Source: an uncultured Spirochaetales bacterium (lineage in GTDB: Bacteria; UBP6; UBA1177). Taken from it: 64,000 bases of DNA. Position 1 is the stretch's first letter; each line of letters starts with the position of its first letter. A program made the translations under genes and the position numbers. The notes beneath the pieces were generated by a model. The model was given only the letters and a program-made list of their open reading frames with translations, ran no database searches and had not been told where the DNA came from. Shown one piece after another: positions 1 through 8,112 of the stretch. The stretch lies in the NCBI GenBank assembly GCA_902774115.1, contig CACYHH010000001.1:310001-374000 (forward strand), in the 5' to 3' direction.

Positions 1-2037
1 GGTTACACCTTTCTTTATGAACTCAACCGGCGAGTAACCGCGGTAGAATGAGCCGTCGCACCATCTGCTGACTATAGCTTCGACCGGCACAGGGAGCGAA
101 TTCGAATTGATCAGGAATTCCGAGAAGTGTCCTGTTTTTGCAATCATTACGCTGGAACTTGTTCCCATCATAATCGGGTCGCCCGCTGCAATTCTGCTGG
201 TCTCGCTATTTACAGGAATCATAATCGGATCGCCGCCTGCCGCCGCACCTGCAGGATTTTCTCCTGAGGAAATCATGATCGGATCGCCGCCCGCGGAGTA
301 CATGATCGGATCTCCCGCCATGATCGGATCGCCGCCCGATGAACGGAGAACGTGCATGATAGGATCGCCGCCCGCCGTGAACATAATCGGATCGCCGCCG
401 TCTTCCATCATGATGGGATCACCGCCCGATGACTGGAGAACATCGCTTGTGCCGTCGGCATTGTTTCTTCTCGCCGAAAGCATGATGGGATCACCGCCGA
501 AAACTGTGCCGAGCTCATAGACGAAATAGAGTGAATCGCCGGTGAAAGTCGTTCCCGCCGGTTCAAAAGTTATCTTTGAAACCTGAGAGCCACCGTTTGA
601 TTTTGCGAGCCTGTAAGTCAGGTAATTTACAGGTGAATTTCCTCTTTTTATTGTCGTATTCTTAGGAATGACGGCATAAATTCCGTTATCGATATAGTGC
701 ACGATATCCTTAGACATGTCGCGGACATCAATTACGTCGGTCGCTTTCTCAAGCAGGAAAAGAATTGTTGCGGAATCTTCCGTTATCATGATGGGATCTC
801 CGCCGTCGTCACCGTTTCCGCCCATGATCGGATCTCCGCCTTCATCCTCCATGATCGGGTCGCCTCCGAGCCTTGCACGGACAAGATATTCGCCGGGTTC
901 GACACTTTTGAACTTGTGTGACGCCGCTTCGGCAGTGTTGTTCATGACAGTCCATGTAATTTTGAAACCTTCCGCAACCACACTGCTGCCGCCTTCGATA
1001 TTGAGCGTTACTTCGTTACTGTCAGGATTTGCGACATTTATAAGAACTTCATTTCTATTTGCCGAAATTTTGAAACCGTTGAAAAATTTCCGGAACTTAC
1101 GGTCTGTCCTCAGAATATCATCCGCAATCTCTTCGGAAAGAGTTTTTGAATCGGTCGTGTCGAGATAACTTGAAAGAAGTCTGAGTCCTTCTTTGATGCC
1201 CGAAAGCTTCGTGTAATCGAGCTCTCCCAGCCATTCGCCAGTTCCAAGTTTTACATATTTTCTGACTTTCGTCTCGTTTTTTCTAAAATCGGGACATGTT
1301 GAAATGAGAGCAACAACATGAGTGATTTCGGAAATGTTGGCTGTATGATCGCTCATCCCTGCAAAGCAGCTGTAAAAGCTGTTTGCATTCACGCAGTAAA
1401 CCTTATCAGCCGAAATATCGGCGTTGAAAGAATATTTTCCGTCCGCGTCAGTATTTGCGTAAGCTATTTTTTCGGTTTTGCCGCACTCATGAAGAAACAC
1501 TTCTATTCCCGAAACATCGCTGCCGATCTGGTATGAACCTGAAATATTGTGATTTTCGGTTACTTCGGGAATTTCAGGAGTATCGGTGTCCTCATCCGGA
1601 GTCGGTTCGGTCGGATCTGTGTCAGTGTCTTCATCCGGAGTCTGGTCGGTCGGCTCAGTATCTGTGTCTTCATCCGGAGTCTGGTCAGTCGGATCGGTAT
1701 CGGCATCGTTATCCGTTATTCCGGAATCCGAAGTGTCAGTATCTTGATCAGGTTCAGGTTCTTCCGTGTCGGTATCATCGGCAGGTTCTTCAATGTTTCC
1801 CGGATCTTTGATGCAGATGTTGTTATCTTTATCGCAGACAAGACCTTCGTTGCAGGTTTTGTTCGGATAACACTCGCCGTAAAGCTCGCCCGGCTTTCTG
1901 TCTGAATCGTCATCGGCCGAATCTTCGTCAGGGTAGTCATAAACATTGTCTTTCTTGCTTTCACCGCAGCCAAGCACAAAAACAAGTGCCGAAAGAATTA
2001 AACAGAGCGAAAGGAATCTTTTCATGAATCTTTTCAT
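1..2037 (-). CDS. Lipoprotein with GGDPIM peptide repeats (3' end outside window)
   Basis: Open reading frame on the minus strand that runs off the left edge, so its C-terminus is missing. The ATG at 2037 is chosen because AGGAG lies six bases upstream; a second ATG at 2025 is too far from it. The N-terminus is a lipoprotein signal ending VLGCG, predicting an outer-membrane or periplasmic lipoprotein. Next come a short Cys module (CYPNKTC..GLVC....NIC), an acidic linker with tandem TPDEDTDT units, and a region like a carboxypeptidase-regulatory or SpaA-type beta domain (KIAYANTDADGKYSFNADIS). The C-terminal half carries twelve copies of (G)GDPIM, three clustered and then nine. I do not recognise the family and the repeat function is unknown; surface display is inferred. 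The Cys module is shared with the lipoprotein at 23925-24980. Confidence 0.85.
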   Translation of the reverse strand, partial: MKRFMKRFLSLCLILSALVFVLGCGESKKDNVYDYPDEDSADDDSDRKPGELYGECYPNKTCNEGLVCDKDNNICIKDPGNIEEPADDTDTEEPEPDQDTDTSDSGITDNDADTDPTDQTPDEDTDTEPTDQTPDEDTDTDPTEPTPDEDTDTPEIPEVTENHNISGSYQIGSDVSGIEVFLHECGKTEKIAYANTDADGKYSFNADISADKVYCVNANSFYSCFAGMSDHTANISEITHVVALISTCPDFRKNETKVRKYVKLGTGEWLGELDYTKLSGIKEGLRLLSSYLDTTDSKTLSEEIADDILRTDRKFRKFFNGFKISANRNEVLINVANPDSNEVTLNIEGGSSVVAEGFKITWTVMNNTAEAASHKFKSVEPGEYLVRARLGGDPIMEDEGGDPIMGGNGDDGGDPIMITEDSATILFLLEKATDVIDVRDMSKDIVHYIDNGIYAVIPKNTTIKRGNSPVNYLTYRLAKSNGGSQVSKITFEPAGTTFTGDSLYFVYELGTVFGGDPIMLSARRNNADGTSDVLQSSGGDPIMMEDGGDPIMFTAGGDPIMHVLRSSGGDPIMAGDPIMYSAGGDPIMISSGENPAGAAAGGDPIMIPVNSETSRIAAGDPIMMGTSSSVMIAKTGHFSEFLINSNSLPVPVEAIVSRWCDGSFYRGYSPVEFIKKGVT
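155..866 (-). repeat. Twelve copies of a GGDPIM-encoding repeat
   Basis: On the minus strand the codons for Gly-Gly-Asp-Pro-Ile-Met (or Ala-Gly-Asp-Pro-Ile-Met) recur three times between about 784 and 866 and nine times between about 155 and 500. The unit is largely conserved at DNA level (GGCGGCGATCCGATCATG and close variants). Spacing between copies varies from none to about 25 codons, so this is a scattered short repeat rather than a regular tandem array. Confidence 0.9.
1573..1740 (-). repeat. Tandem repeat encoding TPDEDTDT-type acidic linker
   Basis: Three imperfect in-frame units of about 45 bases encode (D/E)PT(D/E)(Q/P)TPDEDTDT within the lipoprotein. Such Asp/Thr/Pro-rich stretches usually act as extended spacers between the lipid anchor and the folded domain. 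Confidence 0.8.
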
Positions 2038-2190: not shown

Positions 2191-2970
2191 ATGATTTTTT
2201 TATATGACGGCACCTTTGAAGGTTTTCTGAGCGCGGTTTTTGATGCGTTTTTAGAGAAAGAAGAAGTCGAAATTGCGAAAAAGACCGGTTTTCAGCCGCA
2301 GTTTTTCACTGAAACACGCGAAGTTGAAACTTCACCCGAAAAGGCGGAAAGGGTTGCCTCGAAACTTCTGGAAATATGCGGAGAGCGCGGATTTACGGCG
2401 ATAGTCTATATCTTTCTTTCGGAAGAGGAACACTGCGAAACTTACGGCTTTTATCTGATAAAAGCTGCTTTGAAGAACGGAAAAAGGGCATTCTCCTGTT
2501 TTCAGGACGAAAAGATCGCTCGTGCGATGATGATGCGTAAAAAAGTGTCGCGTGAATACGACAAAATGCTCGGACTGCTGCGGTTTTCCGAGCTTTCAAA
2601 CGGTATTTTCTATGCTCCCTTTGAACCCGATTTCAACCTTATCCCGCTTCTTGTTCCCCATTTTTATGAGCGTCTTTCGGGAACGAAGTGGATGATTCAC
2701 GATCTGAAACGCGGAATAGCCGTCTATCATGCCGAAGGAAAAACTGAAAATGTTGAATTTATTGACGAAATCACATCTCACATGAATATGGAAATACTTC
2801 TCGGAAAATCTGAAAACGAGGATTCTTTCGAAAAAATGTGGTCAAATTACTTCAAGATAATAGCGATAGAAAGCCGCATAAATCCGAAACTCCAGCTGCG
2901 TTTTGTGCCGGAGCGTTACTGGAAACACCTGACGGAAAGGAAGAACGAAGTTTCTGACTTCAAAGTCTGA
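2191..2970 (+). CDS. DUF4130 / TIGR03915-type DNA metabolism protein
   Basis: The 259-residue protein opens with MIFLYDGTFEGFLSAVFDAF, the hallmark of the DUF4130 family, and continues with the matching RKVSREYDKMLGLLRFSEL and FYAPFEPDFNLIPLLVPHFYERL segments. This family usually occurs next to a radical-SAM protein related to spore photoproduct lyase and is thought to act in DNA repair or modification, possibly with uracil-DNA glycosylase activity in fused members. No radical-SAM partner is adjacent here; the next gene is unrecognised. GGAG seven bases before the ATG supports the start. The final codons and stop lie inside a 25-base direct repeat. Confidence 0.85.
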   Translation: MIFLYDGTFEGFLSAVFDAFLEKEEVEIAKKTGFQPQFFTETREVETSPEKAERVASKLLEICGERGFTAIVYIFLSEEEHCETYGFYLIKAALKNGKRAFSCFQDEKIARAMMMRKKVSREYDKMLGLLRFSELSNGIFYAPFEPDFNLIPLLVPHFYERLSGTKWMIHDLKRGIAVYHAEGKTENVEFIDEITSHMNMEILLGKSENEDSFEKMWSNYFKIIAIESRINPKLQLRFVPERYWKHLTERKNEVSDFKV

Positions 2971-7392: not shown

Positions 7393-8112
7393 ATGAAAAA
7401 AATTTCTATGTTCATGTTGATGATTTTCGGAATGTTCATGCTTTTCGCTACTGATGCTGCGCCTGAAACTGCTCAGGAAAATGCTGCTGCTCCTGAAACG
7501 GCTGCCGAACAGGCTCAACCCGCAGAAAACACTGCCGAACCTGCAGAGACGGCGCCTGAAACGACTCAGGAACCCGTACAAACTGCTGAAACGCCTGCGG
7601 AACAAAACGTAGAAACTTCACCTGAAACACCCGCGGAAACTGCGGAACAAAAGGTAGAAACGGCGCCTGAAACGTCTCAGGAAACCGCAGAACAGGATGT
7701 TGAAAAGGCAAAAGCCGCTAAAAAATCGAAAAAAAACCGCTCTGAAAAACCGCAGAAAATCAAAATGGACAGACCTTATGCCGGTGCCGGAATACCGCTT
7801 ATTGCAATCGGCGCAGTATCTTTCGCAGTTATGATGCCTGCTATGGGAGCTATGGCGTTTGCAGCTTCCGATGCATGCAAGGGCAAAGACTGGGGTTTCT
7901 GCGAGGAGCTTCACGACAACAATAAAAAGCATCACACCGCATGGACTGTAGGTGCTGTTATGACCGGAGTTGTCGGCGCAGGAATGATTGTTGTCGGATC
8001 ATGGATGACAAGTGTTAAAAAAACTAAAGAAAATCAATGCATTGAGTTGAAGAATATGGCCGTTCTCCCGACGAAGGAAGGAATGTATGCTTCAATAGGT
8101 TTTGGTTTCTGA
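7393..8112 (+). CDS. Envelope protein with Pro/Glu repeat linker and two hydrophobic segments
   Basis: 239 residues. The start at 7393 is chosen because the in-frame ATG at 7381 is itself part of the GGAGG site. An N-terminal signal (MKKISMFMLMIFGMFMLFATDA) is followed by about 100 residues built from PET, AEQ and ETAE units, including VETSPETP and VETAPETSQ. These peptides and their DNA resemble the palindromic element found at 11.1 kb and 46.8 kb. A basic patch (KAAKKSKKNRSEKPQK) leads to a C-terminal half with two hydrophobic segments (IPLIAIGAVSFAVMMPAMGAMAF and AWTVGAVMTGVVGAGMIVVGSW). It probably spans the inner membrane with a periplasmic linker. No family recognised. LeuC starts 37 bases downstream. 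Confidence 0.8.
   Translation: MKKISMFMLMIFGMFMLFATDAAPETAQENAAAPETAAEQAQPAENTAEPAETAPETTQEPVQTAETPAEQNVETSPETPAETAEQKVETAPETSQETAEQDVEKAKAAKKSKKNRSEKPQKIKMDRPYAGAGIPLIAIGAVSFAVMMPAMGAMAFAASDACKGKDWGFCEELHDNNKKHHTAWTVGAVMTGVVGAGMIVVGSWMTSVKKTKENQCIELKNMAVLPTKEGMYASIGFGF

Follow-up and report, generated by a model that had tools for sequence, protein, structure and literature searches.

The window, by which we mean the whole 64,000-nucleotide stretch of DNA analysed here, opens inside a lipoprotein gene on the reverse strand that extends to the left beyond it (whole gene contig C1:303563-312037, 2824 aa). The N-terminus of the protein lies within the window, and the features of this part are collected in table 1. 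As the earlier note described, the carrier is a lipoprotein and its GDPIM units number exactly 12, all lying between window positions 169 and 864; ten are GGDPIM and two AGDPIM. Their spacing is irregular in this protein; elsewhere in the family, intervals of 9 or 6 residues prevail. The trio in loop 1 is probably inserted in the loop of a β-hairpin (RARL...DSATILFL). The HFS motif that follows the main array appears, from the sequence, to stand where ZU5-superfamily domains have their HF|S autoproteolysis motif, with cleavage itself only putative. By eye, ZU5-like segments (IPKNT...FEPAG...GHFSEF) flank the array; residues 1-679 of the protein gave no match to Pfam ZU5, so the ZU5-like segment around the array is recognised only by its likeness to paralogues.

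Two further features of the window were noted in passing. A gene for a DUF4130 protein (window 2191-2970, forward strand) adjoins the lipoprotein gene in divergent orientation, and a 45-bp tandem repeat (window 7595-7694) lies in the gene for an Ala/Glu/Pro/Thr-rich, probably exported protein.

Table 1. Features of the lipoprotein gene within the window (window coordinates).
Feature	Position	Strand	Basis
Lipoprotein, N-terminal 679 aa	1..2037	-	ORF translation
Signal peptide with lipobox, to Cys24 (MKRFMKRFLSLCLILSALVFVLGC)	1966..2037	-	inferred from lipobox pattern
Asp/Thr/Pro-rich linker, 3.2 copies of a 39-bp tandem repeat	1579..1703	-	
Loop 1, three GGDPIM units (850-864, 823-837, 787-801)	787..864	-	
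Main array, nine (G/A)GDPIM units (481-495, 409-423, 382-396, 355-369, 319-333, 301-315, 274-288, 220-234, 169-183)	169..495	-	
HFS motif (CAC TTC TCG), after the main array	121..129	-	

Genomic copies and their host domains

The pattern GGNGAYCCNATHATG matched 114 times in the 2.51-Mb genome that contains the window, against 0 for the reversed control, and 100 shuffles of the window gave an expectation of 0 matches for the exact DNA pattern. All 114 copies are in frame, so that what had been said of the window's units holds genome-wide, and (G/A)GDPIM is indeed present in other proteins of the proteome: every copy lies in one of 15 large, lipoprotein-type ORFs of at least 432 codons. Several of the GDPIM lipoprotein genes lie at contig ends of this genome, G000 (C1 start, C2 end, C5 start), and 114 may therefore be an undercount. 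Across all loci, the lipobox pattern is present in 127 of 136 ORFs, as counted by a simple pattern match.

The host domain of most arrays is ZU5 (PF00791), which exceeds the curated cut-off in 23 of 28 genomes with a best Pfam E-value of 2.6e-11. Foldseek comparison of the modelled module yielded matches to the ZU5 domains of ankyrin (E 4.4e-6) and UNC5b (E 8.5e-4). Among 30 ZU5 loci picked by the Pfam profile, and thus independently of the motif, 29 contain GDPIM and 28 contain H[FY][ST]. The sole locus without GDPIM, in genome G013, also lacks the H motif, and the other H-lacking locus is a 226-residue open fragment. The motif after the array is HFS in 57 cases, HFT in 55 and HYS in 11, and its His is the fifth residue past the last Met in 96 ORFs. 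Modelling of the module (L143) gave a confident ZU5 fold; in it the array (residues 135-185) is disordered (pLDDT <50), and a break at the HF|T position separates strand 186-192 from strand 195-201. The array makes up the loop that runs into the final ZU5 strand pair, directly before HF[ST]. By this prediction, which draws on a 20-sequence alignment and is compatible with ordering on binding or in an oligomer, the units are disordered insertions and not elements of the fold.

No ZU5 domain known to us carries identical pentapeptides arrayed in this loop. The nucleoporin NUP98 combines GLFG repeats with an HF|S domain, and thus resembles the GDPIM proteins in joining a disordered array of an invariant motif to a ZU5-superfamily HF|S domain. 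The likeness is one of analogy only, since FG-repeat nucleoporins are eukaryotic, use another motif and carry the array outside the domain, and we claim no homology between the arrays. HF[ST] at the C-terminal strand pair is a feature shared with the autoproteolytic domains of the ZU5 superfamily (PIDD, UNC5CL, the FIIND of NLRP1 and CARD8, NUP98), and autoproteolysis has been proposed for the ZU5 domains of bacterial surface proteins (PMC3482391).

Repeat number was compared between related proteins and found to vary: the main array holds 6-11 units, while the loop 1 hairpin is empty in paralogues and holds 0-4 units across orthologues and paralogues. The notion of fixed copies within a known fold, raised in the earlier note as the mark of a plain structural motif, is thus borne out for position (the ZU5 loop and a second hairpin loop) but not for copy number, and the prediction makes the units disordered insertions.

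GDPIM is also found in loops of unrelated exported proteins, namely an alpha-2-macroglobulin-type lipoprotein, an alpha-amylase, an FGE-sulfatase-type protein and a coiled protein. In the alpha-2-macroglobulin-type lipoproteins (L103, L082), SGDPIM lies in an early domain loop, and L103 also has a GCFEQ thioester-like motif. The coiled proteins (L106, L079, L053) are exported and have a coiled N-terminus, GDPIM units and a C-terminal part that is transglutaminase-like by eye and gave no Pfam match. This protein was considered as a reader of the motif; it is present in 6 of 28 genomes and missing from that of the window, so it is a carrier rather than a general partner.

A near-invariant core with a lineage-specific preceding residue

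The unit can be written [AGSQLM]-GDPIM-x-x-x, with a dominant period of 9 residues; spacings of 6, 10, 11, 13, 15 and 17, and single units, also occur. Arrays reach approximately 18 units (L140) and some loops hold only 1-3. In 138 ORFs we counted 913 exact GDPIM units versus 21 one-substitution variants. As this sample was drawn with the exact motif, units were recounted in the ZU5-chosen sample, which yielded 178 exact and 5 near units (97% exact). The core shares Gly-Asp-Pro with the VWD-type GDPH site, which had raised the possibility of GDPH-type autocleavage. In every one of the 913 exact units Pro is followed by Ile, not His, and the domain hosting the arrays is ZU5, with no VWD domain detected, so this type of cleavage is unsupported.

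Conservation in the DNA, claimed for the window's units, proved to be no more than the amino acids impose, as the 12 units comprise eight different 15-mers. Over 12 genomes, the frequency of identical 15-mers between proteins was 0.026-0.153, compared to 0.040-0.142 expected from codon use, and synonymous sites are saturated between arrays and nearly so within them. Random codons beneath an invariant peptide imply strong selection at the protein level and no recent DNA copying.

The residue preceding GDPIM behaves differently from the core. Most species of the genus have A or G at this position. The species from red deer has S (42 of 44 units), RGIG8272 has L or M (37 of 41) and SW_4_4, whose genome belongs to another family, has Q throughout (21 of 21). 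Within the genus, the mutual information between this residue and the genome has a z-score of 12.3, compared to 1.4-3.5 for other flanking positions. To follow individual units, six arrays of the red-deer species were aligned with related arrays of the genus, pairing best domain matches with equal unit spacing (46-81% identity, some of them paralogues). In the resulting 37 unit pairs, which count units and not independent events, there were 0 amino-acid changes at 185 GDPIM positions and 78 synonymous changes, while the preceding residue differed in 36 of 37 pairs and its own N-terminal neighbour in 5. Gene conversion between arrays was considered as the cause of the concerted residue and rejected, codon diversity being near expectation.

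Distribution among lineages

Paired GDPIM units were found in 24 of 28 genomes of the phylum, covering every sampled family of the window's order; they were absent from the three genomes of the sister family and from all 358 sampled genomes of other phyla. Named records with the motif, among the matches listed, include UBP6_UBA1177 and UBP6_UBA1209. UBP6 is listed as Candidatus Asafiota, whose members come from rumen, sludge, cave and hypersaline sediment (PMC11382960); for genus UBA1177, UBP6 genomes from the rumen have been published (PMC7820578). The window probably belongs to UBP6 as well: RGIG2292, the named record that matches best, has a sequence 100% identical to one of G014, a member of the window's genus, and the named UBP6 records share its protein families. 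Records with the title Sumerlaeota also fall in this phylum, as the match coordinates of CSSed165cm_107 equal those of G018. One species of the genus, represented by the near-complete genome G013, has no GDPIM and is a natural loss of the motif. G013 retains one ZU5 lipoprotein (L048/L245), from which both GDPIM and HF[ST] are gone, the latter replaced by HLG.

Outside the order, where the distribution is a lower bound, at least 8 of 139 genomes of a spirochaete family encode a lipoprotein or secreted protein of 109-134 residues consisting mostly of GDPIM units; the linkers are conserved and the codons differ. In most of these copies (L080:998-1357, L156, L157, L094, L149, L089, L153) the stop codon comes straight after a final GDPIM. 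One of five structure models of the spirochaete protein is confidently β-structured; neither Foldseek nor a second aligner gave a convincing PDB match for it, and novelty of the fold is not implied. At least two Limnochordia/Bacillota records (L169, L181) encode exported proteins that are related to each other and have an SGDPIM array at the terminus, and at least three Bacteroidales records contain short GDPIM arrays, which may be due to chance. Collections of phage, plasmid and viral contigs yielded no array, their weak matches being RTX-like or unrelated.

Possible readers of the motif

The repeat falls within no Pfam or NCBIfam family, and RTX, VWD and PGDYG were all without a match over cut-off. 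PGDYG (PF14083) scored at best 24.6 bits against a cut-off of 27, in a local match to part of an array. A literature search returned no relevant paper on GDPIM or on such a repeat, its disorder or its lipoproteins. LPXTG, PEP-CTERM, GlyGly-CTERM and lipoprotein export signals are precedents for one short motif common to many unrelated exported proteins of a lineage. Tags of the LPXTG type are single terminal sorting signals, whereas GDPIM is internal, multi-copy and placed in loops.

The motif is nearly invariant, is under selection at the protein level, lies in loops and changes its preceding residue in concert, which argues for selection acting via one binding, modifying or self-association partner. 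A fold would hardly account for strict Ile and Met combined with a switch at one position throughout the genome, whereas a single partner that reads every copy would do so easily; this partner may be a further protein, an enzyme or the arrays. A recognition signal, or the processing signal suggested in the earlier note, is plausible. In our estimate there is an even chance that GDPIM is a lineage-specific short linear recognition motif, displayed multivalently on loops for a binding or sorting partner. We infer the surface location of the GDPIM proteins, their multivalency and the existence of the partner. Many copies would be presented on disordered loops of exported lipoproteins, and one surface or periplasmic partner would bind, sort or cross-link the carriers multivalently. 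Because the array stands directly before HF[ST], the self-cleavage motif of related ZU5-superfamily domains, it may also label that half of a self-cleaving surface protein which stays attached to the membrane. A recognition motif of this kind has several points against it: inspection by eye of the genes near the arrays gave no recurrent candidate for a partner and showed apparently conserved synteny of housekeeping-like genes; G013 is viable without the motif; one spirochaete model is β-structured; and ordering on binding is compatible with the disorder prediction.

If the partner is the arrays themselves, they would bind each other, as stickers and spacers or as a β-roll on assembly, and cross-link surface proteins, the concerted residue keeping the arrays of one species compatible. 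Such a homotypic adhesive or cohesive repeat needs no extra gene and would fit the concerted change of the preceding residue, the multivalent 9- and 6-residue spacing and the confident β prediction for the spirochaete repeats. We nevertheless think it unlikely, given the predicted disorder of the array in its ZU5 context, the lack of a solved fold clearly like the spirochaete model and the loops with only one to three units. A substrate for a modifying or cleaving enzyme, such as a peptidase or transpeptidase with specificity at the residue before Gly, would likewise show a near-invariant core and a lineage-tuned flanking residue, as enzyme substrate motifs do, and the array adjoins HF[ST] within a loop of what is probably an autoprocessing domain; the Asp-Pro bond is, besides, chemically labile. 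Arrays of approximately 18 units exceed what cleavage needs, however, and no co-located enzyme was seen near them, leaving this a rather doubtful proposition.

Structural and DNA-level explanations fare worse. RTX nonapeptide repeats, the calcium-binding units of a β-roll, share with GDPIM the nine-residue period, Gly-Asp and occurrence in exported proteins, and weak matches to calcium-binding repeat proteins were obtained by tblastn and in NCBIfam. GDPIM arrays differ in their irregular spacing and single units, their near-invariant core and lineage-specific preceding residue, and the absence of the GGxGxDxUx consensus or of any RTX family over cut-off, in keeping with the original remark that this is not RTX or another catalogued repeat. 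Structural repeats also tolerate I/V/L and D/N swaps, which GDPIM hardly does, making an RTX-type repeat or a new solenoid very unlikely. A mobile or slippage-amplified DNA cassette, in frame by chance, was another early proposal, consistent with the variable copy number between related proteins and the entry of the motif into unrelated genes. Recent spread of such a cassette is excluded by invariance, codon randomisation and the concerted change of the preceding residue taken together, and is contradicted by synonymous saturation, with 15-mer identity between proteins near the codon-use expectation, by the placement of every copy in frame within large ORFs of exported proteins, by the unit-by-unit alignment of arrays between species and by the absence from phage, plasmid and viral collections. 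Even with an ancient DNA-level origin included, we regard this explanation as highly improbable.

Returning to the short linear recognition motif, a more specific form can be put forward tentatively, as possible but less than probable: GDPIM could be the address code of a surface-assembly or processing system in the Asafiota/UBP6 order. A single trans-acting reader would recognize [A/G/S/Q/L/M]-GDPIM in dozens of unrelated exported proteins, its first-position specificity drifting between species and dragging all genomic sites with it, and the motif would also have been taken up by rumen spirochaetes. A recognition code would offer a direct handle on how the cell surface is built and processed in an uncultured phylum, and a rare natural experiment in motif-reader co-evolution, in which approximately 40 sites switched together at one position while the adjoining five residues stayed fixed. 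With array and HF[ST] coupled in 28 of the 30 ZU5 loci, self-cleavage by bacterial ZU5 can be put to the test in a small domain, and GDPIM provides a simple marker for exported proteins of the order.
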